Source: Halanaerobiales bacterium
GTDB taxonomy: Bacteria > Bacillota > Halanaerobiia > Halanaerobiales > DTU029
Length of the DNA: 64,000 nucleotides
NCBI GenBank assembly: GCA_025451675.1
Contig: JANWJZ010000005.1
Coordinates: 1-64,000, forward strand
Reading direction: 5' to 3'
Positions 45,143-64,000 of this stretch are shown here, in pieces. A program made the position numbers and the translations under genes. Numbering within the stretch: position 1 is the first letter of the stretch; each line of letters begins with the position of its first letter. Under the pieces are notes generated by a model. That model was given only the letters and a program-made list of their open reading frames with translations. It was not told where the DNA came from and ran no database searches.

Positions 45143-46222
45143 ATGAAAATGGTATTTCGCTGGTTTGGCAGCAATGACGATAGCGTTACCCTGGAACAAA
45201 TTAGACAGATACCCGGCATGACAGGAGTAGTCAGTGCCTTACAGGATATACCCGTGGGAGAAGTCTGGCCCATGGAAAGAATACTGGCCTTAAAAAAAGA
45301 GGTAAATGATGCAGGCCTGGAACTGGAAGTCATTGAGAGTGTTAATGTCCATGAAGCCATAAAACTGGGCTTACCGGAAAGGGATCGTTACATAGAAAAC
45401 TACAAAGAAACCATTAAGAATTTGGGTAAAGCAGGGATAAAGGTTATTTGCTATAATTTCATGCCTGTTTTTGACTGGCTTCGTTCTGATCTTGCCTTTA
45501 AACTGGAAGATGGCTCTAATGCATTATATTATAATGAAGAAGCAATAAAAGGCACAAATCCAGTCTCTCTTGTGGAGGATTACCGGACTGGTTCTAAAGG
45601 TTTTACGTTACCTGGCTGGGAACCGGAAAGGTTGGCTGAATTGAGAGAGGTTATGGAATTATATAAAGATGTAGATGAAGAGAAACTTTTTGAAAATCTG
45701 AAATATTTTCTGGAAAATATAATTCCAGTCTGTGAAGAATATGATGTGAAGATGGCCATTCATCCTGATGATCCACCCTGGTCAATATTCGGTTTACCCA
45801 GAATAATTACCAACAGGGAGAATCTGGAACGGATGGTTAAACTGGTAGATAGTCCCTACAATGGCCTGACCCTCTGTAGTGGTTCACTGGGTGTAAATCC
45901 TGAAAATGATATACCGGAACTGATCAGATATTTCGGAAAGATGGGCCGGGTACATTTCGGTCATGTCCGTAACATTAAGATTTTGTCCCCCGGTCAATTC
46001 CATGAGGTTTCCCATCTGTCCAGCGATGGCTCACTGGATGTTTTTGAAATTATGAAAGCCTATTATGATATAGGTTTTGAAGGCTATATCCGTCCTGACC
46101 ATGGAAGAATGATTTGGGGTGAAGAGGCCCGACCAGGTTATGGCCTTTATGACCGTGCCTTAGGTGTAGCCTACCTGAACGGCCTGTGGGAAGCAATCAA
46201 TAAAACGTCAGACAGGGAATAA
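45143..46222 (+). CDS. uxuA: Mannonate dehydratase
   Basis: [79 protein letters not shown]. Confidence 0.97.
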
Positions 46223-46275: not shown

Positions 46276-48342
46276 ATGAGCGTAAGAAGTCATAGTAAAG
46301 CTTATGAATGCTGGCTGACTTATGCGCCACTGGAAGATGTAAATTTAGTGAAGCAATATCAGGAGAAATTCAAGATTGTCCTTATCAAAGGCGATGGCCC
46401 TGTAATGGAATCAGTCCGGGAGGAGCTGAAAGCAGGGTTAAAGGGTATCCTGGGTATTGAAGCTGTCATAACTACGGATAATAATCAAGATGCTACAGTT
46501 TTGGTTATGAAAACAGATCAGGAACCCGTAAAAAGCCTTCTGACTGATGATGAAATCAGGAAGCTGGCTGGAGAAGGCTTTTTGCTCAAGACAACAGTTT
46601 ATGAGGATAAAGAGGTTATTATTGTTACTGCTAAGTCTGAGCGGGGCATTTTTTACGGTACTTTTCGTCTCTTAAAGCAATTACGGATGGGTAAGGATCT
46701 TTCCCACCTGTATCACTTAAGTAATCCTTCCAGCCCAATGAGGATGATTAATCAATGGGATAACCTTGATGGAAGTATTGAAAGGGGTTATGCGGGTAAC
46801 TCCATATTCTATAAGAATAACGAATTGACAGAAAATCTGGAGAGAATCAAGGACTACGCCAGGTTACTTGCTTCTGTTGGTTTAAATAGTGTAGTTATTA
46901 ACAATGTTAATGTTCATCAGGAAGAGACAAGGTTAATTACTGACCGGCTGGATATGGTAAAAACTATTGCCGATATTTTCCGCAAGTATGGAATAGTTAC
47001 CTTTTTGAGCATAAACTTTGCCAGCCCCGTTGAACTGGGCGGACTGGATACAGCCGATCCCCTTAATGAAGATGTGAAAAAATGGTGGAAAGATATAGTT
47101 GCTAATATTTATGCCGAGATACCAGATTTCGGCGGATTCCTGGTCAAGGCAGATTCTGAACACAGGCCAGGCCCCTTTACCTATAACCGGGACCATGCTG
47201 ATGGCGCCAACATGCTGGCCGAGGCACTGGAACCCTATGGTGGTATTCTTATCTGGCGGGCTTTTGTTTATAACTGCCTCCAGGATTGGCGGGATACGAA
47301 AACAGACCGGGCCAGGGCGGCCTATGATACCTTCATGCCTCTCGACGGCAGGTTCAAGGATAATGTTATCATTCAGATTAAAAATGGTCCCATGGATTTC
47401 CAGGTCCGGGAACCGGTTTCACCACTCTTTGGTGGCCTTAAAAAAACCAATCAGATTCTGGAATTACAGATTACCCAGGAGTATACAGGACAACAGAAAC
47501 ATCTCTGTTATTTGATTCCCCAGTGGAAAGAGGTCCTGGAATTTGACACTTATGCAAAGGGTAAAGGTTCAACTGTGAGCAAGATTATCAGCGGTTCTGT
47601 TTTCCCGCAGAAATACTATGGTTTTGCTGCAGTTTCAAATATAGGGAATGATGAAAACTGGACTGGCCATACCCTTGCCCAGGCCAATCTTTATGGATAC
47701 GGGCGGCTGGCCTGGGATCCGGAGCTTTCCGCTGAAGAAATTACCGACGAATGGGTCCGCCTCACTTTTGGCAATGATCCGGAGATTATCAAGACTATCT
47801 CCAGGATTTTACTGAAGTCCTGGGAAACCTATGAAAAATATACCTCGCCCCTGGGAATTGGCTGGATGGTAAACCCTAATCATCATTACGGGCCAAATGT
47901 TGATGGTTATGAATACTCACCCTGGGGAACATACCACCGGGCAGACCATCATGGAATCGGTGTAGACCGGACAGTAAAATTTGGCACTGGTTATGCCGGA
48001 CTATATTATCCAGAAAATGCCGAAAAATATGAATCGCTGGAGAAATGTCCAGAAGAGCTTTTACTCTTTTTCCACCGTGTTCCCTATACCTACCGCCTGA
48101 AATCTGGAAAGACATTGATTCAGCATATTTATGACACCCATTTTGAAGGGGTAGAAGAAGTGGAAGAGATGATCAGGGACTGGCAGAGATTAAAGGGTAA
48201 GATAGATGAAGAAGCATATCTCCATGTTATGGAGAGGTTCAACATTCAGTTAGAGCATGCAAAGGAATGGCGGGATGTAATTAATTCATATTTCTATAGA
48301 AAATCAGGTATACCTGATGAATTGAACAGAAAAATTTATTAA
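46276..48342 (+). CDS. GH67 alpha-glucuronidase (cytoplasmic)
   Basis: Sequence is GH67-like throughout: [69 protein letters not shown]; no signal peptide. Confidence 0.95.
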
Positions 48343-48380: not shown

Positions 48381-50579
48381 GTGAGTAAAAACAATGCAAT
48401 ACCAGCTTACAAAAATCCAGATTTATCTATTGATGAAAGAGTCGATGATCTGGTTAGCAGAATGACCCTGGAAGAAAAGATTAGCCAGATGCTCTATAGT
48501 TCAACTGCCATTGGTAGATTGGATATACATGAGTACAACTGGTGGAATGAATGTCTCCATGGAGTGGCCAGGGCAGGAACTGCAACAGTTTTCCCACAGG
48601 CCATCGGGATGGCAGCAACCTTTAATCCAGACAGGTTGTATGAAGTAGCTTCAGCCATTGCTGATGAAGCCAGGGCAAAATACAATTCAGCCCGGAAACA
48701 TGAAGATAGGGGTATCTACAAAGGCCTTACTTTCTGGACTCCCAATATAAATATTTTCAGGGATCCCCGTTGGGGAAGGGGCCAGGAAACCTATGGAGAG
48801 GATCCCTATTTGACTGGCCGTCTGGGGGTTAGTTTTATAAAAGGCCTGCAGGGAGACCATCCAAAATATATGAAAGCTGCCGCCTGTGCCAAACATTTTG
48901 CTGTACATAGCGGTCCTGAATCCGAGAGGCATGAGTTTAATGCCGTAGTTTCCCAAAAAGATTTGCGGGAGACCTATTTGCCTGCTTTCCGTGATGCTGT
49001 AAAAGAGGCAAAGGTTGAGGCTGTAATGGGCGCCTATAACAGGACCAATGGTGAGCCATGCTGTGCCAGTAAGACCCTTATGCAGGATATTTTAAGGGAT
49101 GAGTGGGGTTTTGAAGGACATTATGTATCTGATTGTGGAGCCATACAGGATTTTCATGAAAACCATAAAATAACCAGTGGCCCGGTAGAGTCCGCAGCAC
49201 TGGGAGTAAACATGGGCTGTGACCTGAACTGTGGTTGGGTCTATGAACACTTAATTGAAGCTGTAAAACAGGGTCTGGTAAGCGAAGAAACCATTGACGT
49301 ATCAGTAAAGAGATTATTCAGGACCAGATTTAAGCTGGGTATGTTTGATCCAGAAGATATGGTTCCCTTTAACAAGATACCCTATGAGGTAAATGATTCT
49401 GAAGAGCATCGCCGGCTGGCCCTGGAGACAGCCAGAGAATCAATAGTATTACTGAAAAATACAGATTCCTACCTGCCATTGAATAAAGATGAGATCAAGA
49501 CAGTTGCGGTAATTGGGCCCAATGCTGACCGGAAGGAGTCATTACTGGGTAACTACTTTGGACTACCTTCAAAATATGTTACAGTCCTGGAGGGTATCCG
49601 GCAGGCAGTAAATGAGGGCACCAGGGTTTACTATGCTGAGGGTTGTGCCATGGGAGAAACTCCGGAATCTTTCTGGGGAAATCCGCCTACCACAGGCTTT
49701 GCCGAAGCCCTTACAGTAGCAGAACTGTCAGATGTAGTAATTATGTGCCTGGGTCTTTCCCCTGAATTGGAGGGAGAGGAGGGTGCTGTTGCTGAATCTG
49801 ACGGTGGCGGTGACAAGCTTGATCTGAAGCTGCCCGGTATGCAGCTTGAATTATTACAGGCTATTTGCCAGCTTGGCAAACCAGTTGTCGTGGTTCTCTT
49901 AAATGGAAGTCCTTTGGAATTAAACTTCGCCGAAGAAAATGAAAATGTAAAGGCCATTGTTGAAGCCTGGTATCCAGGTGAAGAAGGCGGTACAGCCGTG
50001 GCCGATGTTATCTTTGGCAATTACAATCCGGGAGGAAGGCTGCCGATAACCTTTGTTAAGTCAACAGACCAATTGCCTCCATTCCGGGATTACAGTATGA
50101 AAAATAGAACCTATCGTTATATAGAAAGTGAGCCTCTCTATCCCTTTGGCTATGGTCTGAGTTATACTTCTTTTGAGTATTCCAACCTGGTTGTAAGCAA
50201 GGAAGAGCTTTCTACAGCAGATAATGATGATATTATTGTATCTGTAGACGTTGAAAATACCGGAGATAGGGCCGGGGATGAGGTTATACAGCTCTATATA
50301 AAAGATCTGGAGGCTTCTGTACGGGTTCCCATCTGGCAGTTAAATGGGGTAAAACGGATTCATCTGAAGCCCGGTGAAAAGACCAGGGTTGAATTTACCC
50401 TGCGGAAGAGACAGTTTGCTCTTATTGATGAGGATGGCAAAGCGGTCCTGGAGCCTGGTATATTCAGGATCTATGTTGGAGGGCAGCAACCGGATGAGAG
50501 AAGCAAGAAATTAACCGGTAAGGATGTATTATATACAGAAATCGAATACACCGGCGAAAGCATCGAGATGGAATATTAA
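48381..50579 (+). CDS. GH3 family glycosidase (beta-xylosidase-like)
   Basis: RMTLEEKISQM, YNWWNECLHGVARAGTATVFPQAIGMAATF, EAVMGAYNRTNGEPCCASKTLM, VSDCGAIQDFHENH; C-terminal FnIII-like domain; no signal peptide. Confidence 0.93.
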   Translation: MSKNNAIPAYKNPDLSIDERVDDLVSRMTLEEKISQMLYSSTAIGRLDIHEYNWWNECLHGVARAGTATVFPQAIGMAATFNPDRLYEVASAIADEARAKYNSARKHEDRGIYKGLTFWTPNINIFRDPRWGRGQETYGEDPYLTGRLGVSFIKGLQGDHPKYMKAAACAKHFAVHSGPESERHEFNAVVSQKDLRETYLPAFRDAVKEAKVEAVMGAYNRTNGEPCCASKTLMQDILRDEWGFEGHYVSDCGAIQDFHENHKITSGPVESAALGVNMGCDLNCGWVYEHLIEAVKQGLVSEETIDVSVKRLFRTRFKLGMFDPEDMVPFNKIPYEVNDSEEHRRLALETARESIVLLKNTDSYLPLNKDEIKTVAVIGPNADRKESLLGNYFGLPSKYVTVLEGIRQAVNEGTRVYYAEGCAMGETPESFWGNPPTTGFAEALTVAELSDVVIMCLGLSPELEGEEGAVAESDGGGDKLDLKLPGMQLELLQAICQLGKPVVVVLLNGSPLELNFAEENENVKAIVEAWYPGEEGGTAVADVIFGNYNPGGRLPITFVKSTDQLPPFRDYSMKNRTYRYIESEPLYPFGYGLSYTSFEYSNLVVSKEELSTADNDDIIVSVDVENTGDRAGDEVIQLYIKDLEASVRVPIWQLNGVKRIHLKPGEKTRVEFTLRKRQFALIDEDGKAVLEPGIFRIYVGGQQPDERSKKLTGKDVLYTEIEYTGESIEMEY

Positions 50580-50591
50580 TCATATAGTAGA

Positions 50592-50632
50592 AAAGGGGTA
50601 TATAAGTTAAAAACTGGCTTTTATACCCCTTT
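50592..50632 (+). terminator. Putative terminator after GH3 gene
   Basis: AAAGGGGTATA (50592-50602)/TATACCCCTTT (50622-50632); weak T-tract after. Confidence 0.5.
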
Positions 50633-50681
50633 AACACCCTTTTATTAATTATTCTTTTCACGTTTTTTATAATTCATTACA

Positions 50682-50710
50682 TTGACAAGTAGGGAAAGCT
50701 GAGATATAAT
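50682..50710 (+). promoter_or_regulatory. SigA-type promoter for the transporter operon
   Basis: TTGACA (50682-50687), 17 nt, TATAAT (50705-50710); about 270-nt leader before ATG 50988. Confidence 0.75.
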
Positions 50711-50987
50711 AACTAATAAATAAAAGATACTTAAGCATTGTATAGTTAGTACATAGTCAAATTTACATAACCCTAATATATTAGTTAAATATAGCAAAAA
50801 AAAAATCAGAAAATTATCTTTAATATAGTCTTTTGTAATAAACAGAAAGTTTTAGCAAAACGGTTAGAAACCAAAGGGTTTCAATAATATCAAGAACCTT
50901 TGCAAAGGGGTGATAGTGTAAATTTATTCAAAAATAATAAAATTATAAGAATTATTATTTAAACAAAAATTTTAAAGGAGGAAGAAA

Positions 50988-52295
50988 ATGAGAAAATTCA
51001 GCAAAGTTTTATTATTGGTATTATTAATGGCTCTCTTTGCTACCACAGCTATGGCCTATGTTTCCGACCGTTATGATTTTGGCCATGTAGATTTTGGTGG
51101 AGCGACAGTTACAGTTGTAGGTTGGTGGGATCCTCTTGAACAATTCTATGAAGGCGGAAACTATGCTGGCCGTTTAGAGGAAGCCAAAAAGTTATTTAAC
51201 ATAGGTGATATCGTATTCCTGCAGGTACCATGGGGTCCTGAGGGACAGGATATTTACATGAGCCGCTTCCTTGCTGGCGACTCTGATTATGACCTCTGGA
51301 TGTTACCCCATGTTACTTACTTCCCAATGTGGGCTGCTGGAGCAATATACCCAGTAAGCGATGTTATTACAGATGATTATTATACCAATATGCCTTATCA
51401 GCATCAAAGAATGGCTGAAATCTTAGGCGTTGATGGTAAGAAATATACCTTCAGTGTATTCAATGGTATCAATAATAACACAGTTTTCCTGGCTTTCAAT
51501 AAGACATTGTTAGAACGCGAAGGTTTGCCCGATCCATATGAATTATACGAAAACAATCAGTGGAATTGGGAAACCATGACTGAGATTGCCGTAAGGGCAA
51601 CCAGAGATACTGATGGTGACGGCAGGGTTGACCAATGGGGTATGACTGTACCTAATGGTGATGACTGGATCCATGCTAATGGTGGCCAACTTGTAAGCAT
51701 TATCGATGGCAAAGTTACATTTACCGGTGATTCTCCGGCTGTTGTTAATGCTTTAAGACAGATGAGAGTTTGGGAACATGAATTAAAGGTTATGGGAGGA
51801 ACCTGGGAGAAACGTGAATTCTTCAATGGACAGATTGCCTTTGCTAATATGCCCAGCTGGCAGATTGGTCAGTTGAAAGAGAGCATGGAAGACGCATATG
51901 GTGTTGTACCATTACCAATAGGACCTGATGCAACAGATTATCACTATCCATCTGACAACGTAGACAGCCTTTATATCCCGGCTAACGCAGCTGATCCAAA
52001 AGCTTTAATAGCTCTTGATAACTTCCTCTGGCGTGTTGAAGAGTTTGAACAAGGTCAGCAGGAAGGCTTCTTGAACCAGGCTCCAGACAGAATTGCTTAT
52101 TCCATACTGCAGAAAGGTGTAAGGAACTGGACTGGTGAGGCAACATACTTTGCCTGGGTAATTGGAACATATTATCAGAGCATCTACGGTGAAGCCTATA
52201 ACGCTATCATGAGCGGCGAGAAAACACCTGCTGCAGCTATGGCAGAAATTAAGCCACAGGCTCAGGCTATGCTTGATGATGCATTAGGCCAATAA
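50988..52295 (+). CDS. Extracellular/periplasmic sugar-binding protein of an ABC transporter
   Basis: Signal peptide (MRKFSKVLLLVLLMALFATTAMA) without lipobox Cys; ATVTVVGWWDP, DYDLWMLPHVTYFPMWAAGAIYPV, family-1 SBP-like. Confidence 0.85.
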   Translation: MRKFSKVLLLVLLMALFATTAMAYVSDRYDFGHVDFGGATVTVVGWWDPLEQFYEGGNYAGRLEEAKKLFNIGDIVFLQVPWGPEGQDIYMSRFLAGDSDYDLWMLPHVTYFPMWAAGAIYPVSDVITDDYYTNMPYQHQRMAEILGVDGKKYTFSVFNGINNNTVFLAFNKTLLEREGLPDPYELYENNQWNWETMTEIAVRATRDTDGDGRVDQWGMTVPNGDDWIHANGGQLVSIIDGKVTFTGDSPAVVNALRQMRVWEHELKVMGGTWEKREFFNGQIAFANMPSWQIGQLKESMEDAYGVVPLPIGPDATDYHYPSDNVDSLYIPANAADPKALIALDNFLWRVEEFEQGQQEGFLNQAPDRIAYSILQKGVRNWTGEATYFAWVIGTYYQSIYGEAYNAIMSGEKTPAAAMAEIKPQAQAMLDDALGQ

Positions 52296-52355
52296 TAACA
52301 AAATAATAACAACCATGATGATTACTGATTAATATCAGTTAAAAGCCTCAGAGAT

Positions 52356-52404
52356 AGGGGTTCAGAAATAAAGAACAAAAATTCTTTCTCTGAACCCCTT
52401 TATA
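52356..52404 (+). terminator. Hairpin at 3' end of SBP gene (intra-operon terminator/stabiliser)
   Basis: AGGGGTTCAGA (52356-52366)/TCTGAACCCCT (52389-52399) with an inner AAAGAA/TTCTTT helix, followed by TTTAT. Confidence 0.65.
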
Positions 52405-52554
52405 CTTCAACACTGTTCGTGTTTTTTTATTTTATTTAGTGTTATATAAAGTATTATGTACTCATTTGTATTGATAATGATATATTTTTTGTATGCTAAT
52501 TCATTCAGGGAGGTATGGATTAACCTGGATTTTATTGTAAGGAGGTAATGTATC

Positions 52555-54711
52555 TTGCATAAAGTAAAAATGGGGCCGAGAATAATTTTTTTAATTTTAC
52601 TCCTCATCTTTTCTGTACCAATATTTGCAGAAATAGATATGACAAATTTTATAGTTCCCTATAAAAGCTATACCTTTGATTACTGGGATGAACCTATGCC
52701 TGCCCCACAGCCATTTTTGCCAGATAAAATTATTAATCTTTCCAGTATAGGTGTAGAAGGGTTCAGCAGTCCCAGGGATATTTATGTCAGCAAAAGAAAT
52801 AATATTTATGTTGTTGATTCCAATAGTGGCAAAATTATTTCTTTTGACCAGGATTGGAATCTTCTAAATATTATTGATGGTTTTGAAAATGAGGGACAAA
52901 TAGATAAATTATCATCACCATCGGGTATTTTTGTTGATCATGAGGAGAATGTTTACGTAGCTGATACTGGAAACAAGAGGGTTGTTCATTTAAGTCCGGA
53001 AGGAGAACTGGTAAAGATAATCGGTTATCCGGAACCGGAAGTAGATGGAATTTTGCCCGATAATTTTGATTATAAACCAATAAAAGTAGCAGCAGATAGA
53101 TCAGGGCGTCTTTATGTTCTATCTGAAGATACATATGAAGGAATCCTGCAATTTGACAGGATGGGACAATTTCAAGGTTTCATAGGTGCTCCAAGGGTTA
53201 AGCCCAGTCTATGGGATCGTTTCTGGAAATGGTTTGCCACTGAAGAACAGCGGGATAGACGTGCTTATTTTTTGCCTACGGAATATAGTAATATTGATAT
53301 TGATGAACGCGGTTTTATCTATGCTACTATTCCCAGTGGTGACAGGGTTGAAGATGAGGCAGTAAGAAAGCTGAATCCCAGTGGTGAAGATGTGCTACGA
53401 AGAAATGGATTTCATAATCCGGTTGGAGACATCGATTATCCAACTATCTGGGAAGATGCCAATATAACCGGTCCTTCAGTTTTCGTAGATATTGCGGTAC
53501 AGGATTATGATATTTACAATGTTCTGGACCGTAACCGGGGACGGGTTTTTACCTATGATAATAACGGTTATTTACTCTATACTTTTGGCTATAGGCTCGA
53601 AAAATATGGTGCCCTGGTTAGCCCGGTTGCAATAGATACTCTTGATAAAAATATACTTATTCTGGATAATAGAAAGAATTCTATTGTTGTTTACAGGCCA
53701 ACAGATTATGCTGTCAGTATATTAGCTGCTATTGAATATCACTATAAAGGTAACTATGATAAATCTACAGAAATGTGGGAAAAAGTTCTGAAATATAATG
53801 CCAACAATGACCTGGCTTATACTGGCCTCGGCAGGGCGGCAATGAGACTTGATGATTTTGCTACTGCCATGGAATATTTCAAATTGGGTAATAATCGTAG
53901 AGACTATTCTGATGCCCTTTCTTATTATAGAAAAGAGGTTATCGGTCGGAACTTCAATAAGATAATGGCTGGTTTACTTTTGTTAATCATACTGGTAATA
54001 GTCCTTAAAAAATTAAGGCAGAAGGGAGTTTTTGCCAGACTAATTGCCAAAACCAGATGGCAGGAAAAACCCATACTGGTTAAACTTAAATCTGTATACG
54101 ATAGTGTAAGGTATTCCAGGCATCTCATTTACCATCCTTTTGACGGGTTCTGGGATTTAAAGCATGAGAAAAGAGGTAACGTACCGGCAGCCACTGTTTT
54201 ACTTATACTGGTTTGCCTGACTTATGTTTTTATCCGTCAATATACTGGCTTTATTTACAATCCCTATGATTTAACAGAATTAAACATTGTGTCAGAATTC
54301 TTGAGTATTCTGGTACCATTCCTCTTATGGTGTGTAGTTAACTGGTCCCTGACCACTTTAGTAGAAGGAAAAGGTACTTTCAGGGATATCTATATTGCAT
54401 CTGCTTATGCTTTGACTCCGATAATTTTAATCAATATACCCCTGACTATTGTTAGTAATTTTATGACTATAGAAGAAAGTGCCTTCTATAACTTTTTCTT
54501 CCTTGCAGCTATATTCTGGGCCGGATTTCTTGTCTATTTTGGTATTATGGTTACCCACCGGTTTGAGGGAGGCAAAAACTTTTTGACAGTAGTCCTGACT
54601 ATAGCAGGTATGCTCTTTGTTATATTTATTAGTATACTGTTCTTTAATCTGGCCGAACAGTTCTATACTTTCGTAAGAGAAATATATCTGGAAGTAGTTT
54701 ACAGACTATAA
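52555..54711 (+). CDS. Exported NHL-repeat beta-propeller / TPR protein with C-terminal Yip1-like membrane domain
   Basis: Start TTG with SD aaggagg; signal peptide; SSPRDIYVSKRNNIYVVDSNSGKIISFD and SSPSGIFVDHEENVYVADTGNKRVVHLSPEG NHL repeats; TPR (Y.GLGRAAMRLDDFATAMEYFKLG); multiple C-terminal TM helices. Confidence 0.75.
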   Translation: MHKVKMGPRIIFLILLLIFSVPIFAEIDMTNFIVPYKSYTFDYWDEPMPAPQPFLPDKIINLSSIGVEGFSSPRDIYVSKRNNIYVVDSNSGKIISFDQDWNLLNIIDGFENEGQIDKLSSPSGIFVDHEENVYVADTGNKRVVHLSPEGELVKIIGYPEPEVDGILPDNFDYKPIKVAADRSGRLYVLSEDTYEGILQFDRMGQFQGFIGAPRVKPSLWDRFWKWFATEEQRDRRAYFLPTEYSNIDIDERGFIYATIPSGDRVEDEAVRKLNPSGEDVLRRNGFHNPVGDIDYPTIWEDANITGPSVFVDIAVQDYDIYNVLDRNRGRVFTYDNNGYLLYTFGYRLEKYGALVSPVAIDTLDKNILILDNRKNSIVVYRPTDYAVSILAAIEYHYKGNYDKSTEMWEKVLKYNANNDLAYTGLGRAAMRLDDFATAMEYFKLGNNRRDYSDALSYYRKEVIGRNFNKIMAGLLLLIILVIVLKKLRQKGVFARLIAKTRWQEKPILVKLKSVYDSVRYSRHLIYHPFDGFWDLKHEKRGNVPAATVLLILVCLTYVFIRQYTGFIYNPYDLTELNIVSEFLSILVPFLLWCVVNWSLTTLVEGKGTFRDIYIASAYALTPIILINIPLTIVSNFMTIEESAFYNFFFLAAIFWAGFLVYFGIMVTHRFEGGKNFLTVVLTIAGMLFVIFISILFFNLAEQFYTFVREIYLEVVYRL

Positions 54712-54735
54712 ATTTACCCGACTAAAGAAAGGAAG

Positions 54736-57477
54736 GTGTCAATGTTGCTCTCTAGCAGATTTTCCAGAAACCTTTTAATACTCTTAATTGCAATATTCTG
54801 CAGCTGGGCAGCCCTTGCTCAAATTAGCGGTTTTGAAAAGATAGCAGAAAACGAATACTTAATTTTATATATAAACAACCAGACGACTGAGATAGCAGTT
54901 GAAGAAAAATCTTCAGGTGAAATATGGTACTCAAATCCCCCTGACCGGAATACAGGGGGAGCCAGGGGAATCGCAAGAAATTTACTGAACTCCCAGTTAA
55001 AAATCATCTATTATGACCTTGGAGATAGAATGTATGAAATGAATACATATGGAGATGCAATACTTAATGAGCAATATACCATTACACCCCTGGAAAATGG
55101 TGTGCGTGTAGACTATATATTTGGTAAAGAGTGGAAAGACGAAGATTATGTTGCCCGTATAATTGAAAAAGAAAAGTTTGAAAATGAAGTGCTGGCCAAT
55201 CTGCCCAGATCAGAACGTGATTTTCTGCTTGACCAATACTTTTTGATCAATATGGTTGAACGTGCAGAAGGAGAGGAATTATTAAGCATATACGGGATTA
55301 ATACTGAAGAGGTTTTCCGGAATTACAAAATAGAATTCCTCAATGCGAAATTGACAGAACGGGATCAGCGGATTATGATCCAGAATATCCTGAAAGAAAT
55401 AGTCGAGGGAAGAGGATATGCCAGTATTAATGGCATTAAACATGAGGACCTGGTTCCCTTGATCAATAATCCTGTTTATGTACAGAGACATGACATTATA
55501 CCATGGGATGTGGAATATATTATTGATGCTTTCAAGGAGGCCGGTTATCATCCGGAAATGGTCCAGGAAGACCATTCCAGGTTTAACTATGAAATACCGC
55601 ATCCAAATGTAAGGAAATTTGAAGCGGCAATAGAATATATCCTGGATGAAGAAGATCTGGTTGTAAGAGTACCGGGTGATAGTATTGTTTATCCGGTGGA
55701 TGTTATAGACCATGCTACCGGGAACCGGATAACCTTGCCCCTGACAACCATCGAGGTTTTACCCTATTTTGAAGCAGCCAATGCAGAAAAAGAAGGATAT
55801 ATATTTATACCTGATGGTAGTGGAGCCCTTATAAATTTAAACAATAATAAAACAAACCTGGTACCCTACAGGAAACAGATTTATGGAATAGACTTTTCTG
55901 TACAGCCCATCAGGGAATTGCAACCCTTCCTCAATGAACAGATTTATCTTCCTGTTTATGGTATGAAACAGAATGAGAAGGGCTTTCTGGCCATAGTGGA
56001 AGAGGGGGATGCTATTGGTAGTATAAATGCGGAAATTTCCGGGATGAGGGATTCTTACAATAAAGTTTATACAAGTTTCGAAATAATTCCCAAGGCCTCT
56101 GTTGATCTGGCTGCAACAGACAATTTAAGAGCAGAAACTACCCTCCACAGACTGGCTATAAACATGTACCAGGCCAGAAATTATAAAGGTGATATTAAAA
56201 TCCGTTATAAATTATTAAAGGGAGAAGAAGCAGAATACACAGGAATGGCCCGGATTTACCAGGAATACCTGGTAGAAAAATATAACTTAACAAAGATTGA
56301 GGATACAGGGAAAGTTCCCTTCTTTTTGGAGTTGATAGGTGCAATCGATAAAGAGATGCCGGTTATGGGTGTGCCCCGTAATGTTACAGTGCCATTAACC
56401 ACTTATAAAGAGGCCAATATTATTATTAATGAACTACTGGAAAAAGGTGTGGAGGATCTGGTCATAAAATATACCGGCTGGACAAAAGGCGGTATAAGGC
56501 ATGTTTATCCTGATAAAGTAAGACTGGATAAGAAGTTGGGTAACAGAGAAGATTTTGACACTTTACTTAATACTGTTAAAGAAAATGATCTAAAGCTCTT
56601 TCCTGATATAGCTTTTCTGAATATATATCGAGATAAAATATTAGACGGATTTGTTGGCTATCGTGACTCAGCCAGATTTTTAAGCCGGAGGAGAGCTTAT
56701 ATCTTTGACGAATTTAATCCTTCCAATCATCAACCCGGCGAAAAACAGAAGGATATCCTTTCTACCAGCCGATTGGAGAAATTGGTTGATGAGTTCTTAA
56801 AGTCTTACAATAAGTTTGATTTGTCCGGATTATCTCTCCGCTACATGGGAGAGCAGGTGAATTCCGATTTCCGTGTTAATCCTGACGAATTAGTAGACAG
56901 GCAACAGGCCAAAAACCATATTGTTGCTCAACTGAAGAGGTTGTCAAGGGATTACGAGCTTATGGTAAATGGTGGAAATGCCTATTCCTTACCATATGTC
57001 AGCTATATTATTGACATGCCCCTGTATAGTGACGGTGAATCATTATTTGATAAAGGTGTACCGTTCTTCCAGATGGTTTTACATGGTTATATTTACTATA
57101 CGGGAGAACCAATTAACCTTGCCAATATGTCCAGATTGCATTGCCTGAAATTAATCGAAACCGGGGCTATCCCCTATTACCGCTGGAGTTATGGGGATTC
57201 CTCTATAGTAAAGAAGAGTGATTTTGATGATCAATTCTCCATTTATTATAAAGATCATCTGGATGAGGCAATTGAATTTTATGAAAGTTATAGTTCTGTT
57301 ATGAGCGGCTTAAAGTCACAGAGGATAACTGGACACAGGCAACTGGCTTTTAGAGTATATGAAACTGTCTATGAAAATGGTGACAGGATTATAGTTAATT
57401 ATAATCAGGATCAGGTAGAGGTAGACGGCTATATAATCCCGGGTGAAGATTACAGATTAATTAAAGGGGAGAGATGA
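54736..57477 (+). CDS. DUF5696-like exported protein; possible glycoside-hydrolase-like TIM barrel
   Basis: Signal peptide; N-terminal beta-rich region (LYINNQTTEIAVEEKSSGEIWYSNP); C-terminal alternating alpha/beta region (VEDLVIKYTGWTKGG...LKLFPDIAFLNIY...DLSGLSLRYMGEQVNSDF...VNGGNAYSLPYVSYIIDMPL). Confidence 0.65.
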   Translation: MSMLLSSRFSRNLLILLIAIFCSWAALAQISGFEKIAENEYLILYINNQTTEIAVEEKSSGEIWYSNPPDRNTGGARGIARNLLNSQLKIIYYDLGDRMYEMNTYGDAILNEQYTITPLENGVRVDYIFGKEWKDEDYVARIIEKEKFENEVLANLPRSERDFLLDQYFLINMVERAEGEELLSIYGINTEEVFRNYKIEFLNAKLTERDQRIMIQNILKEIVEGRGYASINGIKHEDLVPLINNPVYVQRHDIIPWDVEYIIDAFKEAGYHPEMVQEDHSRFNYEIPHPNVRKFEAAIEYILDEEDLVVRVPGDSIVYPVDVIDHATGNRITLPLTTIEVLPYFEAANAEKEGYIFIPDGSGALINLNNNKTNLVPYRKQIYGIDFSVQPIRELQPFLNEQIYLPVYGMKQNEKGFLAIVEEGDAIGSINAEISGMRDSYNKVYTSFEIIPKASVDLAATDNLRAETTLHRLAINMYQARNYKGDIKIRYKLLKGEEAEYTGMARIYQEYLVEKYNLTKIEDTGKVPFFLELIGAIDKEMPVMGVPRNVTVPLTTYKEANIIINELLEKGVEDLVIKYTGWTKGGIRHVYPDKVRLDKKLGNREDFDTLLNTVKENDLKLFPDIAFLNIYRDKILDGFVGYRDSARFLSRRRAYIFDEFNPSNHQPGEKQKDILSTSRLEKLVDEFLKSYNKFDLSGLSLRYMGEQVNSDFRVNPDELVDRQQAKNHIVAQLKRLSRDYELMVNGGNAYSLPYVSYIIDMPLYSDGESLFDKGVPFFQMVLHGYIYYTGEPINLANMSRLHCLKLIETGAIPYYRWSYGDSSIVKKSDFDDQFSIYYKDHLDEAIEFYESYSSVMSGLKSQRITGHRQLAFRVYETVYENGDRIIVNYNQDQVEVDGYIIPGEDYRLIKGER

Positions 57478-58376
57478 AATTGAAAAAGAAATTTAGAATT
57501 ACTGTAGAGAATAGAAAAAAAATAGGCGGTTACTTTTTTACCCTTCCCTTTACTCTTGGTTTTCTATTCCTGTTCCTGTATCCCTTTCTTCAAACTGTTA
57601 TGTTCAGTTTCAATAAATTAAATCTGGGAAGGGAAGGATATAGCCTCGAATTTGTAGGCATTGCTAACTATAAATACGCGCTTCTTGAAAATACCGAATT
57701 TGTTGAAACACTGGTAGAAACGGTTCTTTCCATGTTGGCTGAGTTGCCGGTCATCCTTGCTTTCAGTTTATTTGCAGCAATTATACTGAATCAGAATTTC
57801 AAGGGTAGAACACTGGCCAGGGTTATCTTTTTCCTGCCAGTGATCTATGGGGCCGGTGTTGTATTGAAAATGGAACAGACAGACTATGTAACAGAGTTAA
57901 TGAGACATAGTGATACTCTCTTTATGTTCAGTGGAGATGCCTTGCGGAACCTGTTAACACAGATGAGGGTTATCCCTGATTGGATGGTAAATTATGTTAT
58001 GAATGCAGTAGAAAATATCCCGACTATTATCCGTTCATCAGGAATACAGATATTGGTTTTCCTTGCCGGATTGCAGTCAATCTCACCGGAAGTATATGAA
58101 GCGGCAAAAGTTGAAGGGGCAACTGCCTGGGAGTCATTCTGGCTAATTACTTTCCCCATGATCAGTCCCCTGATTATAACAAATACCGTTTACACTATAG
58201 TAGATTCCTTAACATCAGCAACAAACCCATTGGTAGATCAGATAAAAAATGCAACCTTTTCTGGCAGGGGATATGGCGCAAGTACCGCTATGTCGACGAT
58301 ATATTTCCTCGTAATAGCTATACTTCTTGGCATAGTATTTAAGTTGATAAATAAATATGTTGTCTATACAGATTAA
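57474..58376 (+). CDS. ABC sugar transporter permease (MalF/UgpA type) with atypical central insertion
   Basis: TM pattern, EAA loop VYEAAKVEGATAWESFWLITFPMISP. Confidence 0.9.
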   Translation: MKLKKKFRITVENRKKIGGYFFTLPFTLGFLFLFLYPFLQTVMFSFNKLNLGREGYSLEFVGIANYKYALLENTEFVETLVETVLSMLAELPVILAFSLFAAIILNQNFKGRTLARVIFFLPVIYGAGVVLKMEQTDYVTELMRHSDTLFMFSGDALRNLLTQMRVIPDWMVNYVMNAVENIPTIIRSSGIQILVFLAGLQSISPEVYEAAKVEGATAWESFWLITFPMISPLIITNTVYTIVDSLTSATNPLVDQIKNATFSGRGYGASTAMSTIYFLVIAILLGIVFKLINKYVVYTD

Positions 58377-58425
58377 GAGGAAATGAGCGGCCAACGGATA
58401 AAGTTCTAAACAGAGGGGGTTTAAA

Positions 58426-59394
58426 ATGGAAATTGCTGTTAAAGAAAATAATACTAAAAAAGGCTTTTTAAATAAAGTATTTTCCAGAAAAACAATCTAT
58501 AGTTTTCTACGGGCAGTATTACTTTTAGGTATCTCTTATATAATCTTATTGCCTTTATTATCCAAGATTTCGGGATCTTTTATGTCTGTAAGGGATCTCT
58601 ATGACCAGACCGTGAAGTGGATTCCCAGAAATTTTACCTTTGAACATTATGAAATGGTCTGGCGGAACATGAACTATCCGACAGCCTTTAAAAACACATT
58701 CTTACTGACTTTAACTGTCAGTATATTACAACTGGCGTCCTGTACAGTGATTGGTTATGGTTTAGCCAGATTTGATTTCAAGGGAAGAAATCTAATCTTT
58801 GCTCTGGTTATTATGACCCTGGTTGTACCACCCCAGATGATTCTGACTCCTTTATATTTAAATTTTCGTTATTTCGATTTATTAGGCATTCTGCCTAAGC
58901 CTTTAAACTTAATTGGTTCTTACTGGCCTTTTGTCCTGACTTCTATAACAGGAAATGGCTTAAAAAATGGTCTCTTTATCTATATCATGAGGCAATTTTT
59001 CAAGGGCATGCCTAAAGAATTGGAAGAAGCAGCCTATATCGATGGAGCTGGCCTTTTCCGTACTTTTCTCTATGTTATGTTACCAGGTGCAGTTCCAGCA
59101 CTGGTAATAGTATTCCTCTTTGCTTTTGTCTGGCAGTGGAATGATTATATCTTCATTACGCTTTTCATGGGTGGCGGCGGAATGTTTTTACCACAGGTAC
59201 TTGAACTGCTGGCTCCCAAAGTTATCAGTGAGGTTACCGGTGGTACCGCTGCAACAAAATTGCAGGGAGATCAATATGAGTCTCTGATAAATAATACAGG
59301 TATGCTTCTGGTCATAGCACCATTATTGATACTTTATGCTTTCATGCAGAAATACTTCATTGAGAGTGTTGCCAGAAGCGGTATCGTAGGCTAA
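58426..59394 (+). CDS. ABC sugar transporter permease (MalG/UgpE type)
   Basis: FMSVRDLYDQTVKWIPRNFTFEHY; EAA loop LEEAAYIDGAGLFRTFLYVMLPGAVPAL. Confidence 0.93.
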   Translation: MEIAVKENNTKKGFLNKVFSRKTIYSFLRAVLLLGISYIILLPLLSKISGSFMSVRDLYDQTVKWIPRNFTFEHYEMVWRNMNYPTAFKNTFLLTLTVSILQLASCTVIGYGLARFDFKGRNLIFALVIMTLVVPPQMILTPLYLNFRYFDLLGILPKPLNLIGSYWPFVLTSITGNGLKNGLFIYIMRQFFKGMPKELEEAAYIDGAGLFRTFLYVMLPGAVPALVIVFLFAFVWQWNDYIFITLFMGGGGMFLPQVLELLAPKVISEVTGGTAATKLQGDQYESLINNTGMLLVIAPLLILYAFMQKYFIESVARSGIVG

Positions 59395-59435
59395 TCTTTT
59401 TATCATGAAAAAGGCTCTAAAAAAAAAGCAAGGAG

Positions 59436-62400
59436 TTGAAAAGGTGGATGAATAAGAATAATGCGGATAGGATTAGCTGGAATATTGCAATCTTAATGCT
59501 GCTTACACTCTTTCTTTCCTTAAATATCCAAGTATATGCAGCACTGGATGATATCAGTTCCCTTGAATATGAAATATATGTTGATTATGAAACATACTTG
59601 AACCAATATGAGGGTTTTTATCGTCCAGATAGGGAAATTGTTATTCCAGCTATTGATTATAGCAGAACAGATACAGAAGTAGAGATTATTGATAATTTAG
59701 CAGGATATAATGGGAAAGCCCTTAAAACTCCTGAATCTGGTTTTGTGGAATGGGAGTTTTATGTGGAAGATGCGGGATTTTATAATATTTCCCTTGAATA
59801 TTATCCACTGGAAGGTATGGGTTCCAAAATAAGCAGGAGCTTATATATTAATGGAGAAATACCTTTTGGTGATGCCAGATATTTAGAGTTCCATCGGATC
59901 TGGAAAGATGCTGGGGAGATCAGAAAAGACAACAGGGGTAATGAAATTGCTCCATCACAGGTAGAGGCTCCTGAATGGATAGAGGTAAACCTGGTAGACA
60001 GCCTGGGTTATTATAACGAACCTTATCTCTTCTATTTTCAGGAGGGTATAAACACAATTGCCATTGAAGGTAAGAAAGAACCAATGGCGATTGGAAAAAT
60101 AAAAATATATCAGGCAAAAGAGAGCCCGAGCTATGCTGATAAGCTCCTTGAATATGAGAAGATGGGCTATAAAAAGACAGAAGGTGTTTTCGTCAAGGTA
60201 CAGGCTGAAAATGTAAAACTTAAGTCAAGCTCTACCATTTACCCAATCTATGATTTATCAGATCCATTACTGGAACCATATCACCATGCCCAGATAAGAT
60301 TAAATGTTATCGGTGGAAACCGCTGGCAGGAACCCGGCGATTGGGCAGAATGGGAGATAGAAGTACCGGAAGATGGCTTATATGTACTGGGTTTTAAAGC
60401 CAAGCAGAACCTGATAAGAGGAATTTACACTAGCAGGCGCCTTTATATAGATGGTGAAGTTCCTTTTAAAGAAGCTGAAAATATAGAGTTTAATTTCAGC
60501 AATGATTATGAGATGATAATACCCGGCAATGAAGAAGGTGAACCCTACTACTTCTATTTGAGCAAGGGAAAACACACCATCCGGTTGGAAGTAGTTCTGG
60601 GCAGGATGGCCAATATTATCAGAAAGACAGAGAATAATCTCTACGAGTTGAATAATATTTTCAGGCAGATTATAATGATTACTTCTGCTACACCAGATAG
60701 GCTCAGGGATTACCGCCTGCAGGAAAGAATACCACACGTAATAGAAAATCTGAAGGAAAAAGCCCTGGAACTGAAGGATATTGCCGATGAACTGGCATTA
60801 AATACAGGGGAATTAGGCGGGCAGGTGGCCCAGATGCATGCCATTTCCAGGCAGTTACTGCATATGGCAGAGAATCCCAGAACAATACACAGGAGAATTC
60901 AGCCCTTCAGGGATTATCTGGGTAACCTGGGTAACTGGCTTATGGATGTTTCGAAACAGCCTTTAACTCTTGATTATCTGGTAGTGGCTTCTCCAGATGT
61001 TGAGATGCCGAGGGTTAAACCTAATTTCTTCGAGACAGCAAAACATGAAGTCAAGAAATATATTGCCTCCTATTTTGTCAATTATGATATGATTGGCGAT
61101 GTATATGAAGAAGACTCTGATAAGAAACCCTTAAAAGTCTGGATTGCTCAGGGTTTTGACCAGGCCCAGATCTTAAAGAGGATGATTGAGGACGATTTTA
61201 CACCGAAGACAGGTATCTATGTAAACCTGGAATTGGTTCAGCTGGGTAACCTTTTACCGGCTACACTGGCTGGAATCGGACCGGATGTGGCCCTGGGTAT
61301 GCAGTCTTTTGACCCGATAAACTTTGCTATCCGTAATGCAGTGGTTGATTTGACCCAATTCCCTGATTTTGAAGAGGTAAAGAAACGCTTCCATGAAAGT
61401 GCCTTTGTACCCTTTACTTTCCGGGATAGTGTCTATGCCCTGCCGCAGCAACAGGTATTTGCCATGATGTTCTACAGGAAAGATATCCTGCATGAACTGG
61501 GTCTTGGTATACCTGATACCTGGGATGAGGTATTTGAACTTATACCGGAATTACAGAAAAATAATATGAATTTTGGTTTACCGGTAAATGACCTGAATGC
61601 CAGAAGGGCAGTAGCCCCTGGAATCGGTATGTCTACACCTCAGGGCAGTTTGTCAGCTTTCCCTGGTGTTATGCCATTCCTTACCTTCCTCTACCAGAGG
61701 GGAGGCAGCCTCTACCTGCCTGACGGGGTGAAGACAGATCTAAATAATGAAATAGCTGTAGAAGCCTTCAGGCTGTGGACTGACCTTTATGAATTATATA
61801 AGATACCTTTACAGTATAACCCGCAGAACCGTTTCAGGACCGGTGAAACACCAATTGTAATAGATAACTATCCCTTCTATAATATCTTACAGGTCTTTGC
61901 ACCTGAAATAAGGGGTAAATGGGGCTTTACACTGGTGCCGGGAACTCTGAGAGAAGATGGTACGATTGACCGTACCATTCCGGCAGGAGCCATGGCCCAG
62001 GGGGTTGGTTCAGCAGATATGATAATGGCCGCTTCCGATAAGAAAGAAGAGGCCTGGGAGTTCCTGAAATGGTGGACCAGTACTGAAGTCCAGGCCAGAT
62101 ACGGCCGTGAACTGGAGAGTGCAATGGGAGTTGCGGCCCGCCATCCAACCGCCAATATGGAAGCCAATAAACTCCTGCCCTGGACTGTAGAGGAGATCAA
62201 TGAGATTCAGAAGCAATGGCAATATGTTAAAGGGATACCGGAAGTACCTGGCGGATACATGACCGGCCGTCACCTGGATAATGCTTTCAGAAAGGTATAC
62301 AACGAACAGGAAGATGCCCGGGAGACCTTATTAGATTATGTAAGAAAGATAGATGAAGAGTTAGAGATAAAACGGGATGAGTTTGGTCTTGAAACAGAAG

Positions 62401-62459
62401 TAGATGTAATATTGGAAAAGGCAAAAGAGAATCCTGAACTATATATCTGGTGGGAATAA
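59436..62459 (+). CDS. Large (1007 aa) exported protein: two N-terminal beta-sandwich (CBM-like) repeats fused to an extracellular solute-binding domain
   Basis: Signal peptide; repeats SRSLYINGEIPFGDARYLEF and SRRLYIDGEVPFKEAENIEF; C-terminal family-1 SBP (VWIAQGFDQAQILKRMIEDDFTPKTGIYVNLE...ALPQQQVFAMMFYRKDILHELGL.IPDTWDE...AWEFLKWWTS). Confidence 0.85.
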   Translation: MKRWMNKNNADRISWNIAILMLLTLFLSLNIQVYAALDDISSLEYEIYVDYETYLNQYEGFYRPDREIVIPAIDYSRTDTEVEIIDNLAGYNGKALKTPESGFVEWEFYVEDAGFYNISLEYYPLEGMGSKISRSLYINGEIPFGDARYLEFHRIWKDAGEIRKDNRGNEIAPSQVEAPEWIEVNLVDSLGYYNEPYLFYFQEGINTIAIEGKKEPMAIGKIKIYQAKESPSYADKLLEYEKMGYKKTEGVFVKVQAENVKLKSSSTIYPIYDLSDPLLEPYHHAQIRLNVIGGNRWQEPGDWAEWEIEVPEDGLYVLGFKAKQNLIRGIYTSRRLYIDGEVPFKEAENIEFNFSNDYEMIIPGNEEGEPYYFYLSKGKHTIRLEVVLGRMANIIRKTENNLYELNNIFRQIIMITSATPDRLRDYRLQERIPHVIENLKEKALELKDIADELALNTGELGGQVAQMHAISRQLLHMAENPRTIHRRIQPFRDYLGNLGNWLMDVSKQPLTLDYLVVASPDVEMPRVKPNFFETAKHEVKKYIASYFVNYDMIGDVYEEDSDKKPLKVWIAQGFDQAQILKRMIEDDFTPKTGIYVNLELVQLGNLLPATLAGIGPDVALGMQSFDPINFAIRNAVVDLTQFPDFEEVKKRFHESAFVPFTFRDSVYALPQQQVFAMMFYRKDILHELGLGIPDTWDEVFELIPELQKNNMNFGLPVNDLNARRAVAPGIGMSTPQGSLSAFPGVMPFLTFLYQRGGSLYLPDGVKTDLNNEIAVEAFRLWTDLYELYKIPLQYNPQNRFRTGETPIVIDNYPFYNILQVFAPEIRGKWGFTLVPGTLREDGTIDRTIPAGAMAQGVGSADMIMAASDKKEEAWEFLKWWTSTEVQARYGRELESAMGVAARHPTANMEANKLLPWTVEEINEIQKQWQYVKGIPEVPGGYMTGRHLDNAFRKVYNEQEDARETLLDYVRKIDEELEIKRDEFGLETEVDVILEKAKENPELYIWWE

Positions 62460-62480
62460 AAGAGGAATGGAGGGAAAATT

Positions 62481-63431
62481 ATGGACACACAAATAACTGT
62501 TGAAAACCAGGGCTTAATGTATAACCTGAGACATAGATTTACCAGATTAGGAAGGGATATTGCCAGGAATAAGACCTCCTATCTATTCCTGGCTCCCTAT
62601 GCCATAATATTTATCACCTTTACTGTATTACCGGTTTTGGTTTCTATAATCCTGAGTTTTACACATTATAATATGCTGGAAAAACCCGTCTGGATAGGAT
62701 GGCAAAACTATCTCAAGCTATTCCTTTCCGATGATGTTTTCTTAATTGCGGTAAAGAATACATTTGTCTTTGCTGCGATAACTGGTCCGGTGGGGTATCT
62801 GGCCTGTCTGTTTTTTGCCTGGATGGTTAATGAGTTCAAACCAAAGATCAGGGCTTTCTTTACCCTGCTCTTTTATGCACCATCCATCTCAGGTAATGCC
62901 TTCCTGGTCTGGCAGATAATTTTTGATGCAGACCAGTATGGATACCTTAATGGGCTGCTCATGAGCCTGGGCCTCAGGGATGATCCCATCGCCTGGCTCT
63001 ATGATCCCAGATTTATTCTACCTATCTGTATTATTGTTACTCTATGGATGAGTTTGGGAACCAGTTTCCTGGTTTTCATTGCTGGTTTACAGAATATAGA
63101 CCCCAGTTTATATGAAGCGGGAGCCATTGACGGTGTACGTAACAGGTGGCAGGAATTATGGTATATAACTTTACCAAGTATGAAACCACAGTTGATGTTT
63201 GGCGCTATCATGTCTATTACCTCGTCTTTTGCTGCCAGTGCACAGATAATCCCTCTGGCTGGTTTTCCAAGTGTGGATTACGCAGCCAGAACTGTTGTCA
63301 GCCATCTCCTGGATTATGGTAGTGTCCGTTTTGAAATGGGTTATGCCTGTGCCATTGCAACTGTATTATTCCTGGCCATGGTTATTACGCAGAAAATAGT
63401 ACAAAGGCTTCTTAGCAAGGTAGGTGAATAA
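62481..63431 (+). CDS. ABC sugar transporter permease (MalF/UgpA type)
   Basis: LFLAPYAIIFITFTVLPVLVSIILSFTHYNML; LYEAGAIDGVRNRWQELWYITLPSMKPQL. Confidence 0.95.
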   Translation: MDTQITVENQGLMYNLRHRFTRLGRDIARNKTSYLFLAPYAIIFITFTVLPVLVSIILSFTHYNMLEKPVWIGWQNYLKLFLSDDVFLIAVKNTFVFAAITGPVGYLACLFFAWMVNEFKPKIRAFFTLLFYAPSISGNAFLVWQIIFDADQYGYLNGLLMSLGLRDDPIAWLYDPRFILPICIIVTLWMSLGTSFLVFIAGLQNIDPSLYEAGAIDGVRNRWQELWYITLPSMKPQLMFGAIMSITSSFAASAQIIPLAGFPSVDYAARTVVSHLLDYGSVRFEMGYACAIATVLFLAMVITQKIVQRLLSKVGE

Positions 63432-63433
63432 AT

Positions 63434-64000
63434 ATGAAGATTGATTTTAGCATTAGAAGAATGAAAATTAGCCGTTCCGCCGGCGGAGATATATTCCTGC
63501 TGTTTGTACTTATAACTACCGGCCTTTTCATGGCAATACCGCTGGTTTATACTATAACCGGTGCTTTTAAGCCAATGAACGAGATATTCCTCTATCCGCC
63601 AAGGATATTGGTACGTAATCCGACCCTGGATAACTTTAAGGACCTATTCATCCTGATGAGCGAGACCTGGATTCCCATCACCAGATATCTGGCAAACTCA
63701 TTACTGATAGTAGTACTGGGAACCGGGGGGCACGTGATAATTTCTTCAATGGGTGCCTATGTGGTCTGTAAGCACCAATTCCCTGGTAAGAGGTTTTTCT
63801 CAGAAATGGTAGTATTATCTTTGATGTTTGCTGCTGAAGTTACTGCAATACCTAATTTCCTGATCATGAGCAAGTTGGGCTGGATCAATACACTGAAATC
63901 CATAATTGTTCCTGCATGGGGATATAGTTTAGGTTTCTACCTGATGAGCAGGTTCATGACCCAGATACCGGATGTCTTGCTGGAGGCAGCAAAATTAGAC
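63434..64000 (+). CDS. ABC sugar transporter permease (MalG/UgpE type), truncated by window end
   Basis: Manual translation from ATG 63434: MKIDFSIRRMKISRSAGGDIFLLFVLITTGLFMAIPLVYTITGAFKPMNEIFLYPPRILVRNPTLDNFKDLF...VLLEAAKLD; missing from the ORF track because it runs off the end. Confidence 0.92.
   Translation, partial: MKIDFSIRRMKISRSAGGDIFLLFVLITTGLFMAIPLVYTITGAFKPMNEIFLYPPRILVRNPTLDNFKDLFILMSETWIPITRYLANSLLIVVLGTGGHVIISSMGAYVVCKHQFPGKRFFSEMVVLSLMFAAEVTAIPNFLIMSKLGWINTLKSIIVPAWGYSLGFYLMSRFMTQIPDVLLEAAKLD

Follow-up and report, generated by a model that had tools for sequence, protein, structure and literature searches.

Why should a cluster of sugar-uptake genes encode two importers together with two large exported proteins, and is such a cluster a new system or a form of a known one? 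The question is raised by the last part of a 64,000-nucleotide stretch of DNA from a Halanaerobiales bacterium (hereafter the window; positions 1-64000 of contig C5, in an assembly of 2.03 Mb and 90 contigs that is 90% complete). It bears on a wider problem, as the transfer of long, decorated oligosaccharides from secreted xylanases into these bacteria is poorly understood.

Organization of the locus

Open reading frames and Pfam searches confirmed the eight genes of the original prediction, all on the forward strand and in the predicted order, downstream of three context genes:

45143..46222, +: uxuA, mannonate dehydratase, context (Pfam UxuA, 1.3e-170)
46276..48342, +: GH67 alpha-glucuronidase without signal peptide, context (Pfam GH67M, 5.3e-162; N-terminus not hydrophobic)
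48381..50579, +: GH3 glycosidase without signal peptide, context (Pfam GH3, 2.2e-50, and GH3_C)
50988..52295, +: SBP1, solute-binding protein of importer A, AxoE-like (40% identity to a copy on contig C80)
52555..54711, +: NHL propeller/TPR/Yip1 membrane protein, "X" of the A. bescii locus (Pfam, AF2 model, PDB propeller matches)
54736..57477, +: DUF5696 protein, exported, GH129 fold, "GH129" of the A. bescii locus (Pfam, AF2 model, PDB GH129)
57474..58376, +: permease A1, AxoF-like (BPD_transp_1, 7.1e-8; 36% to the L113 homologue)
58426..59394, +: permease A2, AxoG-like (BPD_transp_1, 1.4e-14; 38% to the L113 homologue)
59436..62459, +: SBP2, CBM35-like N-terminus and solute-binding part, XloE-like (SBP_bac_1, 1.3e-21; CBM_35 in homologues; 42% to the L113 homologue)
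62481..63431, +: permease B1, XloF-like (BPD_transp_1, 1.7e-8; 55% to the L113 homologue)
63434..64000, +, cut by the window edge: permease B2, XloG-like (UgpE-type match; 56% to the L113 homologue)

The intergenic gaps from SBP1 to B2 are, in order, 259, 24, -4, 49, 41, 21 and 2 nt, and B2 ends at contig position 64297. The composition is that of CUT1 importers, a solute-binding protein with two BPD_transp_1-type permeases (three of the permeases match Pfam BPD_transp_1), which supports the view of two CUT1 importers accompanied by two large exported proteins. Contig C5 extends to 70,527, and pair B is followed by three GH10 xylanases, of which one lacks a signal peptide, another carries a lipobox and the third a signal peptide. 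The linked xylanases of a xylan degradation locus are present downstream, with GH67 and GH3 upstream, and the xylan context proposed from the window is borne out. A 512-aa exported protein and then a lipoprotein come after the GH10 genes; the former (L003:8173-9711) ends in Phe, has no Pfam match above cut-off and may form a barrel in the outer membrane, the group being diderm.

Of the two solute-binding proteins, SBP1 had no Pfam match at 1e-3, and its C80 copy matches SBP_bac_8 (1.2e-8) and SBP_bac_1 (4.3e-8). SBP2 is 1,007 aa long, with SBP_bac_1 at residues 578-887. Its prediction as a CBM-SBP fusion holds for the solute-binding part, and for the CBM label at profile level only: the CBM_35 profile matches 15 of 27 homologues at E values up to 0.1 (best 1e-3), and the profile of the N-terminus finds PDB 5x7g, a glucanotransferase, at 3.4e-5.

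A published counterpart

The cluster had been proposed as the best candidate for an undescribed system. This idea was abandoned, because the same gene set has been published as the xylan degradation locus of A. bescii, another heat-loving bacterium. PMC8579813 gives it as the operon xloEFG-X-GH129-axoFGE-xynF-xynE-xynD-xyn10A-xynX-xynB, with two CUT1 transporters, control by XynR and AraR, and higher expression on xylan. The 44-nt operator of that locus, published in table 4 of PMC12285236, occurs without mismatch in one sampled locus (L113), about 90 nt upstream of the SBP2 homologue. The same locus encodes homologues of all eight window genes, with identities to the window proteins of 42% (SBP2), 55% (B1), 56% (B2), 35% (NHL/Yip1), 29% (DUF5696), 36% (A1) and 38% (A2), as well as two SBP1-like proteins that are 24-31% identical to SBP1. 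Since L113 combines the perfect operator with the full set of homologues, "X" can be equated with the NHL/TPR/Yip1 protein and "GH129" with the DUF5696 protein. All eight gene types of xloEFG-X-GH129-axoFGE are found together in the window; the locus type is known, and the window cluster belongs to it. The roles of X and GH129 go without explanation in the consulted passages of PMC8579813, and the function of these two proteins is the point of interest in an otherwise known locus type.

Transcription units and ATPase supply

The GH3-SBP1 gap (408 nt) and the SBP1-NHL/Yip1 gap precede tightly packed genes and contain the following elements:

50592..50660, +: terminator-like hairpin after GH3 (RNA fold of 50580-50670, -21.1 kcal/mol, z -4.0)
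50682..50710, +: TTGACA-17-TATAAT, likely promoter of SBP1 onwards (sigma-70 consensus scan, 12/12, the only such site)
50867..50908, no strand: two short palindromes, GAAACC-N4-GGTTTC and CCTTTGCAAAGG, possible operators (between promoter and SBP1 start)
52356..52400, +: hairpin between SBP1 and NHL/Yip1 (fold of 52330-52440, -25.5 kcal/mol, z -3.3)

Because the 408-nt gap after GH3 holds both a hairpin and a perfect TTGACA-17-TATAAT, the genes from SBP1 onwards likely have their own promoter. Considering the hairpin and consensus promoter in the first gap and the hairpin in the second, these sequence features suggest that uxuA-GH67-GH3 probably form a transcription unit apart from the transporter genes and that the SBP1 transcript is probably more abundant than that of the downstream genes. 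The cluster does lie downstream of uxuA-GH67-GH3 as had been stated, but the gap, hairpin and promoter interrupt direct continuity, and with the hairpins taken together they make co-transcription with those three genes doubtful.

As anticipated from the window, the importers would need an ATPase from elsewhere: neither the cluster nor the 6.5 kb past the window showed an ATPase gene. The OB_MalK domain (PF17912) is matched once in the assembly (90% complete), by a 371-aa ATPase at C84:17567 whose gene is preceded by a LacI-type regulator, so that the MalK/MsmK-type ATPase required by CUT1 importers is present in the genome. The CUT1 transporters of A. bescii depend on one promiscuous ATPase, MsmK (PMC12710961), and by analogy one ATPase is likely shared by both importers here; given the 90% completeness, a second ATPase may be missing from the assembly.

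Distribution and co-divergence of the exported pair

DUF5696 proteins are widespread, with at least 568 relatives in one scan of species-representative genomes. Strong matches to DUF5696 (E below 1e-140) and to the Yip1 part (E below 1e-25), with weak matches of both (E above 1e-7) excluded, were found in the same 37 of 398 genomes sampled from the phylum; the other 361 have neither, and no genome has one alone. NHL/Yip1 and DUF5696 are obligate partners of each other. In a sample of 124 distinct loci, in which NHL/Yip1 was counted whether fused or split into two adjacent genes, it lies directly upstream of DUF5696 in 117 of the 118 testable loci, and a permease directly follows DUF5696 in 113 of 115. 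The original prediction had staked itself on the co-occurrence of both homologues with CUT1 permeases, and it survives this neighbourhood analysis, since they stand beside such permeases almost without exception.

Importer B behaves differently. Among the 75 loci flanked on each side by at least 6 kb, an SBP1-like protein occurs in 63, an SBP2-like protein in 56 and pair B in 57, importer B thus being absent from about a quarter of loci. Within genomes, NHL/Yip1, DUF5696, A1 and A2 diverge together, with paralogue distance correlations of 0.60-0.77 (DUF5696-A1 0.77, Yip1-A1 0.70, DUF5696-Yip1 0.62), whereas the correlation of B1 with B2 is 0.88 and those with DUF5696 are only 0.16 (B1) and -0.12 (B2), from only 12 pairs. 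Large inserts specific to the A permeases were considered and rejected, as only 5-residue blocks passed the test. The membership of the exported pair in the transporter is therefore strongly supported for importer A; of the predicted cooperation as one machine, the part uniting NHL/Yip1, DUF5696 and pair A is supported, and importer B is a separable unit. Because importer B is optional, a joint two-importer complex is not required. It could be argued that two independent standard importers are neighbours merely through induction by xylan and that the extra proteins are passengers, and for importer B, which evolves apart from the core, such independence may well hold. As an account of the whole locus we find it highly improbable, because NHL/Yip1 and DUF5696 beside permease A cannot be passengers, given their 37/37 co-occurrence and nearly invariant adjacency.

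Across loci, the module neighbours include GH10, GH42, GH26, GH3, apiosidase, RGL11, alpha-L-fucosidase and LacI regulators. Given the wide spread, the co-divergence and these varied glycosidase neighbours, the core looks like a reusable uptake unit, and its xylan role in the window follows from the adjoining GH67, GH3 and GH10 genes. A broader reading, which we hold to be a serious possibility somewhat short of an even chance, is that the NHL/TPR/Yip1 and DUF5696 proteins are constitutive additional subunits of an unrecognised CUT1 class. In such importers a pseudo-glycosidase, carried by a propeller scaffold bound to the membrane, would receive oligosaccharides and feed the permease, and the class would serve Bacillota generally for polysaccharide uptake, with exchange of the surrounding enzymes adapting it to many glycans.

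The same genome has a second copy of the module, NHL/Yip1-DUF5696-A1-A2-SBP1, on C80 (L004); the 3' end of C23 (L214) is joined to the reverse complement of C80 through an exact 127-nt overlap. This copy lies downstream of a GH1-like beta-glucosidase gene and of a perfect GAAACCGGTTTC palindrome. An operator common to both copies was rejected, as GAAACCGGTTTC has no match with up to two mismatches before SBP1. A ThuA-like protein (L214:6386-7018), identified by eye only, is encoded directly upstream of the GH1-like gene. DUF5696 is also encoded on a contig of another genome from this genus (G002), and one of the same order (G030; L068-L076) has ten DUF5696 matches, most in separate modules. 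At L111, in a genome (G188) of the same genus as that of L113, the module adjoins a GH26-CBM27 mannanase-like protein and an M23 peptidase, which suggests a change of substrate.

The NHL/TPR/Yip1 protein

Pfam assigns Yip1 (8.2e-16), NHL (1e-11) and a weak TPR match to this protein. Its AF2 model (pLDDT 88.1) comprises, from N- to C-terminus, a signal or anchor helix, an NHL-type propeller, TPR helices, a TM helix (about 462-490) and the Yip1 membrane domain, and the best PDB matches of the propeller are the NHL domains of TRIM71 and Thin. NHL and Yip1 are separate adjacent genes in Paenibacillus-type loci (L085-L093) and in several Clostridia loci (among L164-L204), and fused elsewhere. Our literature search found no paper linking Yip1/NHL proteins to oligosaccharide transporters.

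Yip1 domains in eukaryotes are part of membrane-trafficking proteins, and NHL propellers serve as binding scaffolds, the sensor domain of PknD being an example. These parallels would fit a sensor or assembly role, in which the NHL/Yip1 and DUF5696 pair, for example, signals substrate to expression or places the importer without touching the transported sugar. However, the pair has no constant link to any kinase, regulator or secretion gene; its constant partner is the permease pair, and LacI-type regulators are found near some loci instead, so that we judge such a role improbable.

The DUF5696 protein

The protein matches DUF5696 (PF18952) with 629.6 bits against a curated cut-off of 25.6, over profile positions 4-612 of 612, and no paper mentioning DUF5696 was found in our literature search. 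It is not wholly of unknown kind, as had been assumed, since its AF2 model (pLDDT 91.2) has a GH129 fold: the best solved structures are ZgGH129 (E 3.7e-31) and NagBb, followed by GH101, with TM-scores by target of 0.67-0.74 and 11-12% identity for GH129 structures. A profile search also reaches GH129, weakly (3.5e-9 and 1.9e-6). For the window protein Pfam reports DUF5696 only and not PF11308 (Glyco_hydro_129); PF11308 had no match in the genome in a search in which no control matched, and neither tblastn for plasmid-borne GH129 nor a PF11308 search of the phylum gave bridging sequences.

The catalytic residues of NagBb are Asp435 and Glu478. PDB 8rzk bears the name of a D486N Michaelis complex. 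Sequence-based mapping of such residues was given up because alignments stop before beta-4, as did a sub-profile (A6) against PDB; the GH129 positions were therefore placed by strand order. So placed, the position of the acidic nucleophile at the end of beta-4 is occupied by Tyr703 in the window, by Tyr again in the C80 copy and by Ser in L113; only 54 of 111 DUF5696 sequences have Asp there. The end of beta-5, the acid/base position, has no conserved acid at 745 or 748. Where NagBb has HLDGW, a stretch changed in its quadruple mutant, the DUF5696 protein has KYTGW. The residues that are conserved instead include D711, R722, N748, D772, N794 and E808; D711, R722, D772, N794 and E808 are kept in 88-100% of the 111 sequences, and D711, D772 and E808 are about 90-96% acidic.

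With D711, D772 and E808 kept, the protein may be an enzyme with shifted catalytic residues. In its full form this explanation has DUF5696 work as an exported glycosidase with catalytic residues such as D711 and D772, trimming a side chain ahead of import, with NHL/Yip1 serving only as its anchor, and the GH129 fold, the conserved barrel residues and the location of DUF5696 loci among glycosidases all agree with it. We nevertheless regard it as unlikely: the GH129 nucleophile and acid/base positions are not kept, D711 is Asn in 7 and D772 in 5 of 111 sequences, and a single fixed activity fits poorly with reuse beside enzymes for many glycans. A non-hydrolytic glycan-binding role is favoured, and a "GH129" label on a gene of such a locus probably does not denote an ordinary GH129 enzyme.

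Proposed mechanism

On balance, we think it fairly probable that the cluster is a xylan-oligosaccharide uptake locus of the A. bescii type in which the NHL/Yip1 and DUF5696 proteins are dedicated accessory proteins of importer A. Secreted GH10 xylanases would cut xylan outside the cell, and importers A (SBP1 with A1/A2) and B (SBP2 with B1/B2) would take up oligosaccharides differing in size or decoration, both driven by a single MalK/MsmK-type ATPase encoded elsewhere, after which GH67, GH10, GH3 and UxuA would complete the breakdown inside. The Yip1 domain may anchor in the membrane beside permease A, with the NHL propeller and TPR forming a scaffold on the outside, while the DUF5696 protein, with its GH129 fold, may bind oligosaccharide near the permease mouth, or trim it via non-standard residues, so that the pair would capture or hand over oligosaccharides, here from (glucurono)xylan. 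Gene content and order, homology to the published locus, obligate co-occurrence and predicted folds are direct results of the analysis; the substrate in this organism, the physical complex and the handing-over role are our inferences. A widespread module with two never-studied proteins inseparable from one importer is a concrete and testable candidate for a missing capture step, and its hosts are of interest for biomass conversion; for A. bescii, targeted deletion of genes is mentioned in PMC13390378.

Comparison with known systems

New here are the obligate NHL/Yip1-DUF5696 partnership beside pair A, the optional nature of importer B and the reuse of the kit beside many glycosidase families. 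With GH129 glycosidases (NagBb, an alpha-N-acetylgalactosaminidase; ZgGH129, a 3,6-anhydro-D-galactosidase) the DUF5696 protein shares the overall fold, but it differs in the catalytic positions and HLDGW, which are not kept, and in its longer N-terminal part. Similarly, the exported part of the NHL/TPR/Yip1 protein has the propeller fold of TRIM71, Thin and the PknD sensor domain, but is fused to TPR and a Yip1 membrane domain and has no RNA-binding, ligase or kinase portion. Oligosaccharide importers of the CUT1 type that share MsmK likewise consist of a solute-binding protein and two permeases with the ATPase encoded elsewhere, whereas importer A has two extra obligate partner proteins and SBP2 a 500-residue CBM35-like and helical N-terminus. 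The closest system is the A. bescii (Anaerocellum/Caldicellulosiruptor) locus, which in PMC8579813 has the same SBP-permease-permease-X-GH129-permease-permease-SBP set, two CUT1 transporters, no local ATPase and adjoining xylanases. The order X-GH129-A1-A2 is common to both, but SBP1 and importer B have exchanged sides, SBP1 coming first in the window and importer B after rather than before the core; the flanks are GH67/uxuA/GH3 and three GH10 genes instead of the xylanase and esterase set given there, and the window proteins are 24-56% identical to those of L113.
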